Of a stretch of DNA of 64,000 bases, positions 2,567-26,219 are shown piece after piece. The notes beneath the pieces were generated by a model. The model made no database searches and had not been told where the DNA came from. It worked only from the letters and a program-made list of their open reading frames with translations. The stretch is from assembly GCA_943788725.1 (NCBI GenBank), contig CALSRJ010000002.1, forward strand, positions 186,001 to 250,000, given 5' to 3'. The position numbers were made by a program, and so were the translations under genes. The first letter of the stretch is position 1; each line of letters opens with the position of its first letter. Source of the stretch: an uncultured Flavobacteriales bacterium. Lineage in GTDB: Bacteria; Bacteroidota; Bacteroidia; Flavobacteriales_G; Salibacteraceae.

Positions 2567-4282
2567 ATGAAACAGCTACAACTACTTAGCTCAACCTTCC
2601 TACTTGTTTTTTTATGCACGCAAACGCTCACGGCTCAAGACGAGGGTGGAGGTTTGCTGGACGGTTTGCAAATCCATGGCAATTTCGACGTCTACGGACA
2701 ACAGTATAATAAGGACTCGATCATCGGAGCTCCGGTTGTCCCTCAGAAAAGCGGCATCAACGCATTTACTAACCTGATCGCGACCAAAGGAAAATTCACT
2801 GCTGGGGTGCGCATTGAAAGCTACCTTCCTCCTGTTCAAGGTTTTGACGTACGATATGGAAATCAGCCCATCGGCGTGCCGTTTCGCTATGCTACTTTCA
2901 AGCAAGACGGACTCGAAGTGACGGCAGGTAATTTCTACGAACAATTTGGAAATGGATTAATCCTACGGGCCTACGAGGAACGGGCTTTGGGTATAGATAA
3001 CGCCTTTGATGGAATTCGGGTAAAGTACTCTCCCTACAAAGGCGTTTACCTGAAGGGCCTTGTTGGAAACCAACGCTACTACTGGCAAAAAAGTGACGGC
3101 ATTGTGCGTGCCTTCGATTCAGAATTCCAATTGAACGAACTGATATCTCAGCTCGAAACACGTGCTTTGCGTATTTCATTGGGAGGCAGCGTGGTCAGTA
3201 AATTCCAAGCAGGAGGCACCTCCTCTCTCAAGTTACCCGAAAACGTGGCCGGTGGTGCTGGACGTTTTCAACTCAATTGGAAAGACTTTGGCTTGATGGG
3301 AGAATATGCCTACAAAGCGAACGACCCCACTAAATCCAACCACTACATCTATAAGGAAGGTCAAGGCCTCTTCATGTCGGCTACGTACTCTAGAAAAGGA
3401 TTTGGTGTCAACATCTCGGCGAAGAGCATAGACAACATGGAATTCCGAAGCGATCGGGAGGCTGGGTTGAATGACCTGTTCATCAATTACCTTCCTGCGC
3501 TCACACGTCAGCACACATACAACCTAGCAGCTACGCTTTATCCTTACGCCACGCAACCGAATGGCGAAGTGGGCATTCAAGGAGATTTGATTTACAAGAT
3601 CAAACGAGGCAGCAAGATCGGTGGTAAGTACGGAACCACCATTCAAATCAATGTCTCCCTGATCAATGCACTCAAGCGAGATTACTACACGAGTGAAAAC
3701 ATTGACACGGCCAACGCCTTGCTAGATCAGCAGGTGTACTTGGACGCAGATCCAGGACGCAAAGGATACAAGACCAATCTCTTGAATATTGGTGATTCCG
3801 TATACTACCGTGACTTCAACATTGAGATCGATCGAAAATTCACAAAGCACTTTAAGCTCAAGGCTACGTATGCCTTCCAGGAATACAACATTGCATTGAT
3901 TCAGAACAAGGTGTCTGACAATGTTGTCGCCCACATAGGCGTTGTTGAAGGCTTGCACACCTTTGGTAAAAAGCACAGCATTCGATGGGAAGCTCAAACA
4001 CTTTTCACGGATCAAGACCAAGGGGATTGGATCTTTGGCTTGATCGAATACGGTTATTCTCCTCATTGGATCGTAACCATACTCAACCAGTACAATTATG
4101 GCAATAAGGTCGAAGATCTGCGGGTCAATTACCCAACAGCACAGGTGACGTATATCCAGAACGCGCTGAGGATGAGCATCGGATACGGCCGGCAACGGGC
4201 TGGAATTTTCTGTGTAGGTGGAGTTTGCAGAAACGTGCCTGCAGCCAATGGTTTAACGGTTGCCATCACTAGCAGCTTTTAA
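2567..4282 (+). CDS. DUF6029 family outer-membrane protein
   Basis: A protein of 571 residues with a Sec signal peptide (MKQLQLLSSTFLLVFLCTQ...LTAQ). The body is rich in alternating aromatic/polar strands, for example GNFYEQFGNGLILRAYEE and the terminal VAITSSF with C-terminal Phe, as expected for an outer-membrane beta-barrel. I recognise the pattern of the Bacteroidota family DUF6029, whose function is unknown. It sits between the thioredoxin-like gene and the Omp28-like lipoprotein on the same strand, with gaps of 24 and 10 bases, so all are probably cotranscribed. Confidence in the family is fairly high; substrate or partner is unknown. Confidence 0.82.
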   Translation: MKQLQLLSSTFLLVFLCTQTLTAQDEGGGLLDGLQIHGNFDVYGQQYNKDSIIGAPVVPQKSGINAFTNLIATKGKFTAGVRIESYLPPVQGFDVRYGNQPIGVPFRYATFKQDGLEVTAGNFYEQFGNGLILRAYEERALGIDNAFDGIRVKYSPYKGVYLKGLVGNQRYYWQKSDGIVRAFDSEFQLNELISQLETRALRISLGGSVVSKFQAGGTSSLKLPENVAGGAGRFQLNWKDFGLMGEYAYKANDPTKSNHYIYKEGQGLFMSATYSRKGFGVNISAKSIDNMEFRSDREAGLNDLFINYLPALTRQHTYNLAATLYPYATQPNGEVGIQGDLIYKIKRGSKIGGKYGTTIQINVSLINALKRDYYTSENIDTANALLDQQVYLDADPGRKGYKTNLLNIGDSVYYRDFNIEIDRKFTKHFKLKATYAFQEYNIALIQNKVSDNVVAHIGVVEGLHTFGKKHSIRWEAQTLFTDQDQGDWIFGLIEYGYSPHWIVTILNQYNYGNKVEDLRVNYPTAQVTYIQNALRMSIGYGRQRAGIFCVGGVCRNVPAANGLTVAITSSF

Positions 4283-19897: not shown

Positions 19898-22657
19898 TTA
19901 GAGTTTACGTGCTACTTCTACTTCTTCAAAGCCTTCGATAATATCACCTGCTTCGATGTCGTTGAAGTTGTCAATGTTCAGTCCACATTCGAATCCTGCT
20001 TTCACCTCTTTCACGTCGTCCTTGAATCGCTTGAGCGAACCTAGGTTTCCGGAATAGATGACAATGCCGTCGCGGATGATGCGGACCTTCGTGTTTCGCG
20101 TGACCGTTCCGTCGAGGACATAACATCCCGCAATCGTTCCGACCTTGCTGATCTTGAAGGTTTCACGGATCTCGATGTTACAGACCACCTGCTCTTCGAT
20201 CTTCGGCTTGAGCATTCCTTCCATTGCCGCCTTCATGTCATTGATGGCATCATAGATGATGGAATACAATCGGATCTGGATCCCTTCGTTCTCAGCATGC
20301 TTTCGCGCTTGAGCCGATGGACGAACCTGGAATCCAATAATGATGGCATCAGAAGCTGTCGCGAGCAACACATCTGATTCGGTAATCTGTCCGACCGACT
20401 TGTGGATGACATTGATCGCGATGTTTTCTGTAGAAAGCTTAAGCATAGAATCCGCAAGCGCTTCTACTGAACCATCCACGTCACCTTTGATGATAACGTT
20501 GACTTCGTGGTAATCGCCCAATTGGATGATCTCGCCAATGTCCTCCAATGTTCTTCTTCGCTGGGTACGAATGCTCTGCTCACGCTGAAGCTGTTGACGT
20601 TTTGTAGCGATGTTCTTCGCTTCTCTTTCGTCTTCCATTACGATGAAGGTATCACCAGCACTTGGCGCACCATTCAATCCCAAAAGACTCACTGGATGCG
20701 AAGGACCGGCCTCTTCAATGGCAACACCACGTTCGTTGAACATAGCTTTGACGCGTCCGAAGTAGCTACCTGCTAAGATCACATCGCCGATGGCGAGCGT
20801 TCCGGACTGCACCAACAATGTGGATGTATATCCACGTCCTTTATCCAGTGTTGCTTCAATGATCGTTCCTCGCGCATTCTTGTCTGGGTTTGCCTTCAAT
20901 TCAAGCATTTCAGACTCAAGCAATACTTTCTCGAGGAGCTCATTTACGTTCAATCCTTGTTTCGCGCTGATTTCCTGGCACTGGTATTTACCCCCCCAGT
21001 CTTCAACGAGTATATTCATATTGGCCAATTGCTCGCGAATCTTGTCCGCGTTGGCTCCATCCTTATCAATCTTATTGAATGCAAAGACCATCGGCACGCC
21101 GGCGGCTTGCGCGTGATTGATGGCTTCCACCGTTTGTGGCATTACCGCATCATCCGCTGCGATTACAATAATGGCGATATCCGTTACCTGAGCACCTCGG
21201 GCACGCATGGCGGTAAACGCTTCGTGACCTGGCGTATCTAGGAAGGTAATCACCTTACCCCCCTCAAGCTCGACACTGTAAGCGCCAATGTGCTGTGTGA
21301 TACCTCCAGCTTCACCGGCAATCACGTTCTCGCGTCGTACATAATCCAAGAGGGATGTCTTACCGTGGTCTACGTGACCCATCACCGTAACGATTGGTGG
21401 ACGCTCCACCAAATCTTCTGGCTCATCTACGTCTTCTGCGAGTACGGTGTCCTGAATCTCTGAACTGATAAACTCTACTGTATATCCGAATTCTTCGGCC
21501 AGCAAGGTCAACGTCTCCGAATCAAGTCGCTGGTTGATGGAAACCATCATTCCGATGGACATACACATGGAGATCACCTCGGTAGGCGAGACGTTCATCA
21601 TAGTAGCCAATTCACTAACGGTTACGAATTCCGTCAGCTTCAATACTTTCTGATCTTCTTCCGCCTGCTCGAGCTCCTTTTGCATCTTTTCGCTCACCGC
21701 GTCACGGCGTTCGCGTCGATACTTTGAACGGGTAGATTTTCCTTTGCTCTTGAGTGCCGCGAGTGTTTCGCGCACTTGGCTCTGAATTTGTTCTTCGGTC
21801 AACTCTGGCTTCGGAGCCGCCTTAGCACCTCTTCTTCCTGGACCTGACGGACCGCCTGGACCTCGTTTGAAGTCAAGACCTCCGCCGCTAGCTGGTCTGT
21901 TGGTGTCAACTTTAGCGATCCGCTTGCGCTTGCGCTTTTTAGCATCCTCTTCAGACTCACCGACATTCTTCTTGACCCGTTCCGCAGGCAGGTCGATCTT
22001 ACCGACGAATTTCGGACCATCAAGCTTATCAGCCTTGGCCTTCATGACCTCTTGCTCTACTTTCTTTGGCGCAGGGGCTTCTTCCTTTACCTCTTCAACA
22101 GCAGGCTTTTCAGGCTCCTTCTCGGCAACCTTCTTCTCCTCCTCAGCAGCGACCTTCGCTTCCTCTTTCTTCTTCTCTGCAGCTACTTTTTCTTCCTCAT
22201 CTTTCTCGGCCTTCTTCTTTGGGCGATTCGACTTGATGGTAGATAGGTCGATCTTACCGACTACAGTAGGCCCAGCATCTCTCTCCTTTGGCTCTTCCTT
22301 CTTCTCCGTTTTTACGGCAGGAGCTTCTGACGCAGGTTCGGGCTCGTCGATACCGCCAACGTTCTTGATCAATACTTCGTCCTGCTCCGTATCTTGGTTG
22401 GTCTTGGTCTTTTTGGAATCATCCAGCGTAATGGTCTCCCTTACTACTTTGGTATGAGCGAGCTCATTGGACTTCTGCTTCTTTGCTCTGTCCGGGGCAA
22501 ACTCCTCCACCAGTAACTGATAAGCCGAAGGTTCAATCTTGGTATTTGGACGAGCTTCTACTACGATGCCGTTCTTACCCAAGAATTCCACTACGGTAGG
22601 TAATCCTACGTTAAACTCCTTTGCTGCTTTACTTAATCTAATCGGTGCGTCTGACAT
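19898..22657 (-). CDS. infB: Translation initiation factor IF-2
   Basis: GTPase that delivers initiator tRNA to the ribosome; 919 residues. The N-terminal third is a long, highly charged Lys/Glu/Ala-rich region with PKFVGKIDL-like repeats ([20 protein letters not shown]). The G domain shows [20 protein letters not shown] and NKIDKDGAN, and the C-terminal domains follow. It is the last gene of rimP-nusA-infB; the gap to nusA is 41 bases. No terminator is visible in the 18 bases before the convergent SPOR gene. Confidence 0.97.
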
Positions 22658-22698: not shown

Positions 22699-23934
22699 TC
22701 ATTCAAATTCTGCGCGGAGGATCTGAAGAACCTCTTTCACGGTCTCCTCTTCAAGATCGGTGCGCTTTACAAGGTCTTCTTTGGTCAATTCAAGGACACT
22801 TTTCGCAGTGTCACAACCAATGGCCTTGAGTTCGTCGATGATCCAGCTGTCGATCTCATCTGCGAATTCTTCTAGATCCACGTCTTCATAATCTTCTTCA
22901 GACTCTCTGAAAACGTCAATCTCGTGTCCTGTAAGCTTTCCAGCTAATTTGATGTTATGACCTCCCTTACCAATGGCCAAGGATACTTGGTCGGGCTTGA
23001 GGTATACGCTGGCATGCCCAGTCTCTTCGTTGATCTTGATGGTGGTGATTTTCGCAGGACTCAAAGAGCGCTGGATAAAAAGCTGAGGATTGGCCGTGTA
23101 ATTGATCACGTCGATGTTCTCGTTTCGCAGTTCACGAACGATACCATGAATACGTGACCCCTTCATGCCTACACATGCTCCTACTGGATCGATACGATCA
23201 TCGTAAGACTCTACCGCAACCTTGGCGCGCTCTCCTGGCTCACGTACAATCTTCTTGATGGTAATCAAGCCGTCGAAGATTTCAGGCACTTCCATTTCAA
23301 ACAATCTCTCCAGGAAGGCGGGAGACGTTCTTGACAAGATGATTACAGGACTGGTGTTTTTCATATCCACCTTACTAACAACCGCGCGTACCGTATCTCC
23401 TTTTTTGAAATAATCGGTAGGAATCTGCTCTGATTTTGGAAGCACCAATTCATTGCCTTCGTCATCCAACACCAAGATTTCACGCTTCCATATCTGGTAA
23501 ACTTCACCCGTGATGATGTCTCCCACTCGATCCTTGTATTTCTTGTAGATGGTATCCTTCTCTAATTCTTGGATCTTCGCCTGAAGGTTTTGACGCATCG
23601 AAAGGATGGCACGCCGACCGAAGTTTTCGATCTTCAATTCCTCTGATGCTTCCTCGCCGATTTCAAAGTCAGGCTCAATCTTCACAGCATCGCTGTACTC
23701 AATCTCAGTCAGCGGATCTTCCACTGCCCCATCGGCAACGATGGTTCGGTTTCTCCATATTTCGAGGTCACCCTTGTCTGGGTTGATGATGATGTCGAAA
23801 CTGGCATCGTCTTCATACTCCTTGATGATCATGCCACGAATTACATCCTCAAGGATGTGCATCATGGTAACCCGGTCAATGTTTTTAAGGTCTTTGAAGT
23901 CCTGAAACGACTCGATCAATTCATCGGTATTCAT
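22699..23934 (-). CDS. nusA: Transcription termination/antitermination factor NusA
   Basis: A protein of 411 residues with the N-terminal RNA-polymerase-binding domain, an S1 domain (GDIITGEVYQIWKREILVL near 137), and two KH domains (DPVGACVGMKGSRIHGIVREL near 250 and SLAIGKGGHNIKLAGKLTG near 320). An acidic C-terminal stretch with a helix-hairpin-like end follows (LEEETVKEVLQIL). It lacks the long C-terminal acidic repeats of the E. coli protein. It follows rimP by 11 bases. In E. coli NusA regulates its own operon at leader terminators; see the hairpin at 24404-24429. Confidence 0.97.
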   Translation of the reverse strand: MNTDELIESFQDFKDLKNIDRVTMMHILEDVIRGMIIKEYEDDASFDIIINPDKGDLEIWRNRTIVADGAVEDPLTEIEYSDAVKIEPDFEIGEEASEELKIENFGRRAILSMRQNLQAKIQELEKDTIYKKYKDRVGDIITGEVYQIWKREILVLDDEGNELVLPKSEQIPTDYFKKGDTVRAVVSKVDMKNTSPVIILSRTSPAFLERLFEMEVPEIFDGLITIKKIVREPGERAKVAVESYDDRIDPVGACVGMKGSRIHGIVRELRNENIDVINYTANPQLFIQRSLSPAKITTIKINEETGHASVYLKPDQVSLAIGKGGHNIKLAGKLTGHEIDVFRESEEDYEDVDLEEFADEIDSWIIDELKAIGCDTAKSVLELTKEDLVKRTDLEEETVKEVLQILRAEFE

Positions 23935-23945
23935 ATCCGAAATGT

Positions 23946-24392
23946 TTATTTAAACGAAATAATGATTTTAGCTTCCTTAATGTTTTCCCAATCGACCAAC
24001 TCCTCACGCTCTGGCAGTTTCTTCTTCTTCGATGCAGGAAGCTTCAACTTCACTTGTTCATCGGCTTCGATGAGCTCACCTTTCAGTTCTACCCCATCAT
24101 TCAACTGCACCCGGAGCTCACGTCCAACATTCTTAACATATTGACGACGATCTCGCAAAGGCTTGTCAATGCCCGCAGAAGAAACCAACAATTCAAAATC
24201 CTGCGTCTCGCGATCAAGACTAGACTCTACATGGCGACTCACCTGAACGCAATCTTTGATGGTGACTCCTTCCAGGCTGTCCAATTCAATCACAATGCGG
24301 TTAGACGAACTGACCGTAAGCTCAACGACAAACATGCCGGTTCCTTCGATCTTCTCGTCTACCAATGCGTGGATGTCTGAGGCGTTAATCAT
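23946..24392 (-). CDS. rimP: Ribosome maturation factor RimP
   Basis: A 30S assembly factor of 148 residues. Seen: the N-terminal region with VVELTVSSSNRIVIELDSLEGVTI, the family motif SSAGIDKPL, and the small C-terminal SH3-like domain ending in IKEAKIIISF. The ATG at 24392 was chosen because the earlier in-frame Met lies beyond the hairpin and T-run and would add an unconserved tail. It is the first gene of the classical rimP-nusA-infB operon. Confidence 0.95.
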   Translation of the reverse strand: MINASDIHALVDEKIEGTGMFVVELTVSSSNRIVIELDSLEGVTIKDCVQVSRHVESSLDRETQDFELLVSSAGIDKPLRDRRQYVKNVGRELRVQLNDGVELKGELIEADEQVKLKLPASKKKKLPEREELVDWENIKEAKIIISFK

Positions 24393-24403
24393 GGTATTCT
24401 TGC

Positions 24404-24429
24404 AAAAAAAATGAGGGGACTTCCCCTCA
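24404..24429 (-). terminator. Intrinsic terminator between the MORN gene and rimP; candidate attenuator of the rimP leader
   Basis: On the minus strand a 7-8 bp GC-rich stem (TGAGGGG / CCCCTCA, positions 24412-24418 with 24423-24429) is followed directly by eight T. It terminates the upstream MORN-repeat gene, which stops at 24480. A consensus -7 element for the next operon lies upstream of it (24447-24454), so transcripts of rimP-nusA-infB should also pass through it before the rimP start, 11 bases further on. Confidence 0.85.
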
Positions 24430-24446
24430 CCACTTCTTTGACGCCG

Positions 24447-24454
24447 CAAATATA
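24447..24454 (-). promoter_or_regulatory. -7 promoter element (TATATTTG) of rimP-nusA-infB
   Basis: Exact TAnnTTTG match on the minus strand followed by CGGCG. It lies in the 87-base gap between the MORN gene and rimP, upstream of the hairpin at 24404-24429. A start site about six bases on would give a leader of roughly 45-50 bases that is mostly hairpin plus T-run. No clear -33 TTG. Confidence 0.5.
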
Positions 24455-24479: not shown

Positions 24480-26090
24480 TTAAGGTGCCTGAATTCCATC
24501 CTTGAAGTTCATTTCGTTGATCACCTTCCCATTGTCGTCATAATTGATTGCCTTACCGTGGGGTACTCCATTCTTGTAATGCCTAACACCAATGAGCTGG
24601 CCGGTTTGGTTGTACATTTCGCTCTTGCCATCCAATCGGTCCATTTTATACGATTGTTTTTTCAAGATGGAACCGTGCGGAAAATAGTATGTGCACTTGC
24701 CGTCCTTAGAGCCATTGGAATATGTGCATTCATAATCCATATTTCCCGCCTCGTAGAAATAAGACCACTTTCCATCCTGCGTTCCCGCCTTGTAGGCACC
24801 CTCTTCACGCTTTTTACCGTTAGGGTAGCCATAAACCCATTGCCCGTCCTTTAGCCCATCGGTTCGCACGCCTTCATAGTTGAGCTTTCCATTATCAAAC
24901 CACCCTTTCCAGTCGCCATGCATCACGCCAGCCTTGTAGGTGCCTTCATCTTTTAGTTGCCCATTTTGATACCAAGCCTGCCAAAGCCCTTCTTCCTTTC
25001 CGTGGGAATAATTGCCCCTTTGCACGAGTTGCCCTCCTTCGAAATAAGTACGCCATTCCCCGTGTTTCTTATCATCTAGGTAGCTGCCAATCTTCCAATC
25101 CGAACCATCCTTATAGAACATACGCCACTCTCCTTGCCGCAGATTTTCATCAAAATCTCCTGTACTCTCTACCTGGCCATTCTCAAAATAATACGTCCAC
25201 GTTCCGTGCTGCATATCATCTTTGAACGCACCTCTCATGTACACTTGACCTGAACTATTGTACCAAGTCCAAGGTCCATTCTTTTTACCCTTTGCATGCC
25301 TTCCTTCAACGCTAATCGCACCGGTTGGATACCACGTGCGAATCACACCATCAAGTTTCCCTTCTTTGTACTCAATGTGCTTCCATCGCGAGCCGTCTTC
25401 ATAATTAAATTTCCAAAGTCCGGTCCGATCCGTCACGTAAGTATCTCCTTCGCTTTCTATGTTTCCATTTTCGTAATAGTAGGTTGACAATCCGTAGAAT
25501 TGATTGTACTTGACGCTCAATTTCGAGCGCAGTCGTCCACTCTCATAGTAGTCATAGAGTATGCCATTGCCTTCAGAAAGCGTTTGTTCCCCGTCCATGT
25601 TCCAACCCTCTTGTGGATAGGCCAAGCCTTGCGCATAATCAACCACTTTCCACACATCGCCTTCAGGAAACCACCATTTCCATTCGTTGTTCTGGACATT
25701 ATAGTAGTACTCCCCTTTCACCTTCATGTTTCCATTTGGATACCACTCTTTGTATACACTATCCCTTAACGGAGCAAGGATAGCATCTTGGTATACGAGT
25801 TTGAAATAGCCCTCTGCCTTTCGCTGTCCGTTGTCATACCAATAAAGAACCGAACCACTCAAGAGGCCATTGTTGTAATGACTTTGTTCTTGCTTATTGC
25901 CGTTTTCATAATAATACGTCCATTCACCATGCTTTTTTCCGAGCAGAAAAAACCCTTCGCTGTACTTCTGTTTGTGTTCGTCATCATAGAACGTGACAAA
26001 AGCTTCTGGCTTTGCATCAGAAACTTTGATCTCTTGAGCAATGACCAGAGATGACAGCAGCATCATAGTCACAATTACGTAGTACTTCAT
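24480..26090 (-). CDS. Exported MORN/YwqK-type repeat protein
   Basis: A protein of 536 residues: signal peptide (MKYYVIVTMMLLSSLVIAQ) and then about twenty tandem repeats of roughly 23 residues of the form G-x-W-x-x-Y-Y-E-N-G-N/Q, for example GEWTYYYENGNKQE, GTWTYYFENGQVES and GKWSYFYEAGNMDY. These match MORN_2/YwqK repeats. Such proteins are often labelled antitoxin, but there is no toxin gene nearby and this one is exported, so I do not use that label. A surface or periplasmic scaffold role is inference. The start at 26090 gives the signal peptide; a further 20 residues upstream are unlikely. Confidence 0.85.
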   Translation of the reverse strand: MKYYVIVTMMLLSSLVIAQEIKVSDAKPEAFVTFYDDEHKQKYSEGFFLLGKKHGEWTYYYENGNKQEQSHYNNGLLSGSVLYWYDNGQRKAEGYFKLVYQDAILAPLRDSVYKEWYPNGNMKVKGEYYYNVQNNEWKWWFPEGDVWKVVDYAQGLAYPQEGWNMDGEQTLSEGNGILYDYYESGRLRSKLSVKYNQFYGLSTYYYENGNIESEGDTYVTDRTGLWKFNYEDGSRWKHIEYKEGKLDGVIRTWYPTGAISVEGRHAKGKKNGPWTWYNSSGQVYMRGAFKDDMQHGTWTYYFENGQVESTGDFDENLRQGEWRMFYKDGSDWKIGSYLDDKKHGEWRTYFEGGQLVQRGNYSHGKEEGLWQAWYQNGQLKDEGTYKAGVMHGDWKGWFDNGKLNYEGVRTDGLKDGQWVYGYPNGKKREEGAYKAGTQDGKWSYFYEAGNMDYECTYSNGSKDGKCTYYFPHGSILKKQSYKMDRLDGKSEMYNQTGQLIGVRHYKNGVPHGKAINYDDNGKVINEMNFKDGIQAP

Positions 26091-26095
26091 AGGCT

Positions 26096-26103
26096 CAAAT
26101 CTA
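26096..26103 (-). promoter_or_regulatory. -7 promoter element (TAGATTTG) of the MORN-repeat gene
   Basis: Exact TAnnTTTG match on the minus strand, with a TTTG box 22 bases upstream (complement of 26126-26129) as a possible -33. It ends only five bases before the ATG at 26090, so the transcript would be leaderless or nearly so. Confidence 0.5.
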
Positions 26104-26219
26104 GCCTGAGCATGATGTTGGGTGCCAAACGCCCCGAAAAGTTTTCCCATAGGTGTGTTAACTCAGTAGTAGGTGGATTATTTCCTTCAAGTTTCTTCCT
26201 TTGCCCAAATTTCAGCTCT

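Follow-up and report, generated by a model that had tools for sequence, protein, structure and literature searches.

The rimP-leader was described in 2010 among attenuators found in many bacteria (Naville and Gautheret, PMC2965389). As defined there, it is a short terminator hairpin with a G-rich 5' arm, a C-rich 3' arm and a T-stretch, lacks an antiterminator, and lies in the 5' UTR of rimP-nusA-infB, 4-130 nt before the gene; its stem motif is GGGc..gCCC, a signature that the report did not see in other terminators. The figure legend of that report refers to Firmicutes and Gammaproteobacteria, and the string "Bacteroid" is absent from its main text, tables apart. Transcripts of the Streptococcus agalactiae rimP operon are reported to end at an intrinsic terminator 31 nt past the transcription start, and feedback by NusA is suggested (PMC4448216). 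NusA of Bacillus subtilis is reported to control its own expression by stimulating termination in the 5' leader of its gene (PMC12288461). Within the Bacteroidota, a 2021 transcriptome of Flavobacterium psychrophilum lists a structured 5' element upstream of rimP that has no reported Rfam hit and is conserved in other genera of the Flavobacteriaceae; the same source gives TAnnTTTG as the -7 consensus of the phylum's own promoter type (PMC9723704). Our search of the open-access literature, outside which most subscription journals lie, found no description of a rimP leader across the Bacteroidota.

As comparison across genomes indicates, a real attenuator-like leader is conserved before rimP across this phylum, and it extends the known kind of rimP-leader to the Bacteroidota. 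The locus from which the comparison starts lies in a window of 64,000 nt (the whole stretch of DNA analyzed) of contig CALSRJ010000002.1 (assembly GCA_943788725.1), from an uncultured Flavobacteriales bacterium of the Salibacteraceae. Its features, in order of transcription, are as follows.

24480..26150, minus strand: MORN-repeat gene, upstream of rimP on the same strand (Pfam MORN_2, 5e-57)
24447..24454, minus strand: -7 promoter element TATATTTG, an exact match to the Bacteroidota TAnnTTTG type
24438..24442, minus strand: predicted transcription start region, about 5-9 bases past the last base of the -7 element
24411..24430, minus strand: hairpin GUGAGGGG-AAGU-CCCCUCAU, 8 bp with a loop of 4, based on sequence, fold, relatives, and covariation
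24404..24411, minus strand: run of eight T (U-tract), seen in the sequence; in the predicted fold, its first T is also part of the closing pair of the stem
23946..24392, minus strand: rimP, 148 aa (Pfam RimP_N, 5e-8, above the cut-off)
22699..23934, minus strand: nusA, 411 aa (Pfam NusA_N, S1, and KH_5), 11 bases past rimP
19898..22657, minus strand: infB, 919 aa (Pfam IF-2, IF2_N, and GTP_EFTU)

The genes rimP, nusA, and infB are arranged head to tail; the C-terminal RimP domain of the window's rimP scores slightly below the Pfam cut-off. As listed, the MORN ORF extends over the start of a plus-strand enoyl-CoA hydratase-like ORF, and a likelier start for it is an internal ATG ahead of the signal-peptide-like stretch MKYYVIVTMMLLSS.

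From the MORN stop (24480) to the rimP ATG (24392), the minus strand has no TANNTTTG other than the element TATATTTG; eleven bases (24403-24393) separate the T-run from the ATG, which lies about 18 nt from the hairpin (17 as measured by the script). This confirms from the sequence what an earlier note on this DNA had described, namely a single consensus -7, a GC-rich stem, eight T, and an ATG 11 bases on. The note had also named a transcription start after the T-run as grounds for giving up its proposal of an attenuator; at the level of promoter elements, no consensus -7 lies between the T-run and the ATG. On the strength of the -7 element the hairpin would belong to the 5' UTR of rimP. The segment 24440-24392 folds at -17.7 kcal/mol, compared with a shuffled mean of -9.2 (sd 2.2; z = -3.85), and 0 of 200 shuffles were as stable, with pairing of the T-run to the upstream A-rich CAAAGAAG supplying part of the fold energy. 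The predicted fold is one hairpin, extended by this A-tract/T-run pairing, in a leader of probably about 37 nt, which agrees with the note's remark that the leader is too short for an antiterminator. In a consensus scan of 17-32 kb the rimP site ranked first among 15 terminator-like sites; at the loose threshold used 14.1 such sites are expected in shuffles, so the scan by itself proves nothing and the weight comes from comparison.

Other kinds of element were considered at the site. No Rfam family scored above its gathering cut-off at the leader (E up to 10), and both PrrB_RsmZ (25.1 bits, cut-off 44) and BTnc231 (15 bits, cut-off 80.4) were rejected. Attenuation through a leader peptide was also rejected: the reading frame that runs across the hairpin could begin at a TTG (24449), but this TTG lies inside the -7 element, before the predicted transcript start.

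For comparison, loci were fetched by their NusA (the best 80 of 587) and the window was added; among these best 80, the closest locus is that of a Crocinitomicaceae MAG at 81% identity. The usable set comprised 75 loci, the window and 74 others, each with a rimP start and upstream DNA. Left out of L001-L081 were L007, L020, L036, and L079 (no rimP match), L053 (no start), and L013, which has 168 nt of upstream DNA and in which the hairpin is visible. To pass a strict test, the 150 nt upstream of rimP had to contain a hairpin of 6 bp or more, including 4 or more GC pairs, and next to it 5 or more T in 8; a -7 element was counted when TAnnTTTG lay no more than 60 nt before the stem. The hairpin with its T-run passed the strict test in 74 of the 75 loci (1.6% in 1500 dinucleotide shuffles), and in 66 of 75 the -7 also preceded it (0% in 1500 dinucleotide shuffles). 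The exception is L063, a Butyricimonas MAG (~185-244), where the hairpin GAGGGGGC..GCCCCCTC is retained before rimP and the T-run is lost. In this sample the -7 starts a median of 29 nt ahead of the stem (range 17-47), and the distance from the end of the stem to the rimP start codon has a median of 17.5 nt and a range of 5-66 nt with L052 excluded; in L052 the script picked a second, upstream hairpin at 86, and the visible leader hairpin was aligned by hand. The 5' arm carries GGG in 71/75 loci. Tails with at least seven consecutive T occur in 7/74 and tails without in 67/74; the window's run of eight is uninterrupted. An Alistipes MAG (L031, ~1905-2011) has a second TAnnTTTG downstream of the hairpin, 53 nt before rimP, so that some of the transcripts at this locus could bypass the terminator.

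The arrangement is rare at other genes. At 229 other ORF starts in the same loci, a hairpin with T-run was found at 9 and a -7 before the hairpin at none; requiring an A-tract in place of the T-run gave 6 at these starts, which is chance level. In the organism's own genome (2.75 Mb in 140 pieces; 2184 ORF starts of at least 100 aa), the order -7, terminator, start was found at 5 of 2184 starts, compared with 0 when the T-tract was replaced by an A-tract; without the -7 requirement the counts were 91 (T-tract) and 32 (A-tract). The five genes are rimP, greA (its place confirmed), one that we take to be secD-like, and two others. The greA leader (own genome C2:120001-140000, L181, ~3803-3900, minus strand) is arranged as that of rimP is, with TAATTTTG, a hairpin GGAACCG..CGGTTCC (-15.8 kcal/mol), a T-rich tail, and the start 34 nt on. 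A greA-leader is among the attenuators named in the 2010 report (PMC2965389).

Base pairing in the leader was assessed in alignment A1, made by MAFFT from sequence alone, in which L026 and L056 were excluded as duplicates and some rows, including that of the window, are out of register. The consensus is nAnAnnGAGGGGACAnnnGTCCCCTCTTTTATT. Its T columns are among the most conserved: one never varies, and several others have T in 90% of rows or more. The Bacteroidia stem consensus is GGGGAC..GUCCCC, in which the GGG-type pairs are followed by A-U and then C-G; the window does not have the C-G pair. Across the alignment 88.9% of cells are paired, a percentage that is inflated because the rows were chosen for having the hairpin; better evidence comes from double changes, since 8 of 9 pairs have changed on both sides (as many in 3/500 shuffles). 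The covariation score is 0.336, compared with at most 0.147 when the partner is slid by 1-3 columns, and was reached in 0/500 shuffles. The covariation indicates that base pairing of the rimP hairpin matters, and the T-run points to termination over a purely translational role.

The stem sequence, by comparison, does not set the rimP site apart. When the model R2 was run on the organism's own genome, three ordinary 3' terminators outscored the rimP site. The first lies between convergent genes, another follows a gene that we take to encode a ribosomal protein L20-like product, and the third is at the end of a presumably adenosylhomocysteinase-like gene. R2 was therefore rejected as a rimP-specific detector. 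Among the matches listed for 36 other Bacteroidia genomes, which were compared manually with the places of RimP, the best R2 match is just upstream of RimP in at least 15, and 3 have no match; none lies just upstream of RimP among the matches listed for other classes. Six genomes of one genus in another class (G010, G028, G090, G094, G102, and G141) share an R2 match ~27-28 kb downstream of rimP, and this recurrent match would be a conserved terminator or leader of another gene. The special feature of the rimP element is its position, not its stem sequence, and because that sequence is shared with ordinary 3' terminators it provides no mark of a dedicated NusA site.

A second sample consisted of the start regions of 90 of 147 RimP-bearing genomes of the phylum, 36 from the same class and 54 from other classes; the two samples may share species. 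In the same class the strict test was passed by 33/36 (29/32 plus 4/4), with the -7 in 32 (28 plus 4). In the other classes it was passed by 35/54 (16/28 plus 19/26), and TAnnTTTG preceded the strict hairpin in just 8 of 54 (4 plus 4), so the order of promoter and hairpin is not established for them. A permissive folding test gave 35/36 in the same class (31/32 plus 4/4) and 51/54 in other classes (26/28 plus 25/26), and serves as support only, given its high shuffle backgrounds of 40/375 and, for the first 60 regions, of 23/160 (14%) in the same class and 37/140 (26%) in other classes. The permissive test missed L320, whose hairpin is 112 nt upstream, and found no hairpin before rimP in L336, L338, and L277; L305 was counted for a weak AT-rich fold at the chosen start (-6.4 kcal/mol) that we do not regard as a rimP element, and in L282 and L290 the chosen start is a doubtful TTG.

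Stems in the other classes differ, for example GTGGG..CCCAC or TCGCCC..GGGCGA, with the T-run and the site before rimP unchanged. A C-rich 5' arm was seen by eye in at least 11 of 26 other-class loci in one batch of the second sample (L262, L263, L264, L266, L272, L276, L281, L283, L284, L286, and L291). In the other batch (28 loci), a script found such an arm in 3 of 16 strict other-class matches. Inverted arms, with a C-rich 5' arm, also occur in L044 (1797-1837) and L318.

We consider it likely that the leader is a promoter-proximal attenuator, in which early termination sets the read-through into rimP-nusA-infB and NusA is the most likely factor. RNA polymerase would start about 10 nt before the hairpin, near 24440, and transcribe a leader of some 37 nt that includes an intrinsic terminator ahead of the first rimP codon. 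Some polymerases would stop there and the remainder would read through into the operon; because an alternative antiterminator fold would not fit, the stopped fraction would be set by factors on the polymerase. NusA, itself a product of the operon, would favor hairpin formation and pausing, so that high NusA would lead to less synthesis of NusA, RimP, and IF2. Feedback by NusA is favored by the precedents in B. subtilis, S. agalactiae, and E. coli, and the occurrence of termination, the start site, and the role of NusA as sensor are carried over by analogy from other bacteria. We know of no experiment that links NusA to the rimP leader hairpin in any member of the Bacteroidota. The T-tracts bear on this reading in two ways: the window's run of eight is long and could act without a factor, which counts against the reading, and the rarity of long T-runs would suit a weak, factor-assisted terminator, an argument that carries little weight because it has no baseline from ordinary terminators. 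Also counting against the reading are the lost T-run of L063, the weak fold of L305, and the failure of the permissive test to find a hairpin in L336, L338, and L277.

The hairpin might instead be just the 3' terminator of the MORN-repeat gene, standing before rimP by chance. That gene is read from the same strand, and 49 bases separate its end from the hairpin, into which its transcripts would also run; the stem resembles the ordinary 3' terminators of this genome. Against this, the hairpin is retained in 16 of 16 loci in which the neighbor of rimP is divergent and confirmed by Pfam, with no tRNA between, although, with neighbors shared, the number of independent cases is below 16 (L051 and L077 come from a single species, and the core sequence of L050 is identical to that of L056). 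In these loci the neighbor starts within 350 nt of rimP, and the gaps may hold genes shorter than 80 aa. The neighbors are of five kinds, a divergent HD-domain gene (HD_assoc_2) occurring in 11 (L027, L032, L034, L037, L042, L046, L050, L051, L056, L074, and L077). The raw divergent count was 23/23, from which seven loci, all with the hairpin, were set aside: L021 (an ORF overlaps rimP), L017 (tRNA-Gln between), L022 (no Pfam hit), L040 and L049 (without a Pfam run), and L047 and L065 (gaps above 500 nt). The presence of the -7 within 60 nt before the hairpin in most loci of the first sample also speaks against a role confined to the MORN gene. Retention beside divergent neighbors means that a MORN terminator fails as the sole explanation, which contradicts the simpler view, left open by the earlier note, that the hairpin only ends that gene; we give this alternative very little probability, and the hairpin may also be of incidental use to the MORN gene. 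The note's main proposal, a candidate attenuator between promoter and rimP, is supported by retention, by the divergent loci, and by the controls, and the relatives that it suggested comparing, in which a missing hairpin was to count as refutation, have kept the -7, the stem, and the T-run in the same order (66/75 in the first sample and 32/36 in the same class of the second). In L017 (1895-1968), the rimP hairpin immediately follows a tRNA-Gln gene, and the search for TAnnTTTG gave none, so rimP may be cotranscribed with the tRNA, as with metY before rimP in E. coli.

It is likewise very unlikely that the hairpin acts on translation or mRNA stability, as a protective 5' stem or a shield of the ribosome site, and not through termination. 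The stem ends, by its median distance from the start codon, at the edge of the ribosome footprint, but the T-run that follows it in 74 of 75 loci is unneeded for such a role, and the 5-66 nt spread of that distance (L052 excluded) argues against it. An attenuator that works by termination and senses something other than NusA, such as RimP, S1, NusG, or polymerase speed (nucleotide supply), has a somewhat better standing and is still improbable. No sequence signature ties the hairpin to NusA; in B. subtilis, the terminators reported to have distal interruptions of the U-tract include both NusG-dependent and NusA-dependent ones (PMC8060035), and the scarcity of tails with seven or more T in a row (7/74) fits with this. 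In opposition stand the repression of the E. coli operon by NusA (PMC2965389; as a proposal in PMC4448216) and the NusA-stimulated termination in the leader of B. subtilis nusA (PMC12288461). The present data show how the leader is built, that it has been kept throughout the phylum whatever gene lies upstream, and that its base pairs covary.

A broader proposal, which we hold tentatively and at less than even chance, is that bacteria in general use a terminator in roughly the first 40 transcribed bases as a homeostat of rimP-nusA-infB, one with a nearly free stem sequence that senses the state of the polymerase and not an RNA sequence. The sensed quantity would be how fast NusA replaces sigma on the early elongation complex, and a 5' arm that is G-rich in the class Bacteroidia and often C-rich in the phylum's other classes would be compatible with such a device. 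Stems differ or invert while position, pairing, and T-run persist, so the element can separate two ideas of sensing: recognition of a motif in the RNA (the 2010 proposal) and readout of polymerase state. The additional inverted stems in the second sample slightly raise the odds of the broader proposal.

Compared with the rimP-leader of the 2010 report (PMC2965389), the window has the hairpin and T-stretch in its sequence before rimP-nusA-infB, at about 18 nt and so within the 4-130 nt given there, and it has no antiterminator or larger conserved element in its predicted ~37-nt leader. It differs in that the Bacteroidia consensus is GGGGAC..GUCCCC, with arms inverted in some lineages, and in that this stem sequence is common to ordinary 3' terminators, unlike the signature reported there. 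The Rfam family RF01770 (rimP) concerns the same gene and position with a model of 102 positions; it gave no match at the site and 47 weak matches elsewhere in the organism's own genome (E up to 10; 150 of 187 candidates scored). The metY-rimP-nusA-infB leader of E. coli K-12 likewise has GGGC-loop-GCCC-TTTTTTT shortly before rimP, to which R2 gives a weak match (16.2 bits, E 0.25), but further upstream it also has an inverse CCCC..GGGG terminator, preceded in turn by the metY tRNA; the inverted arms of L044 and L318 resemble this inverse terminator. In S. agalactiae, a Firmicute, the start and the end of the short transcript were mapped by RNA-seq (PMC4448216); those of the window's leader are predicted. 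The rimP 5' element of F. psychrophilum, from the same phylum, is a transcribed 5' region (PMC9723704), like the predicted leader of the window. The leader described here would extend a regulatory device of a core operon, which encodes NusA, IF2, and RimP, to a phylum with its own promoter type.
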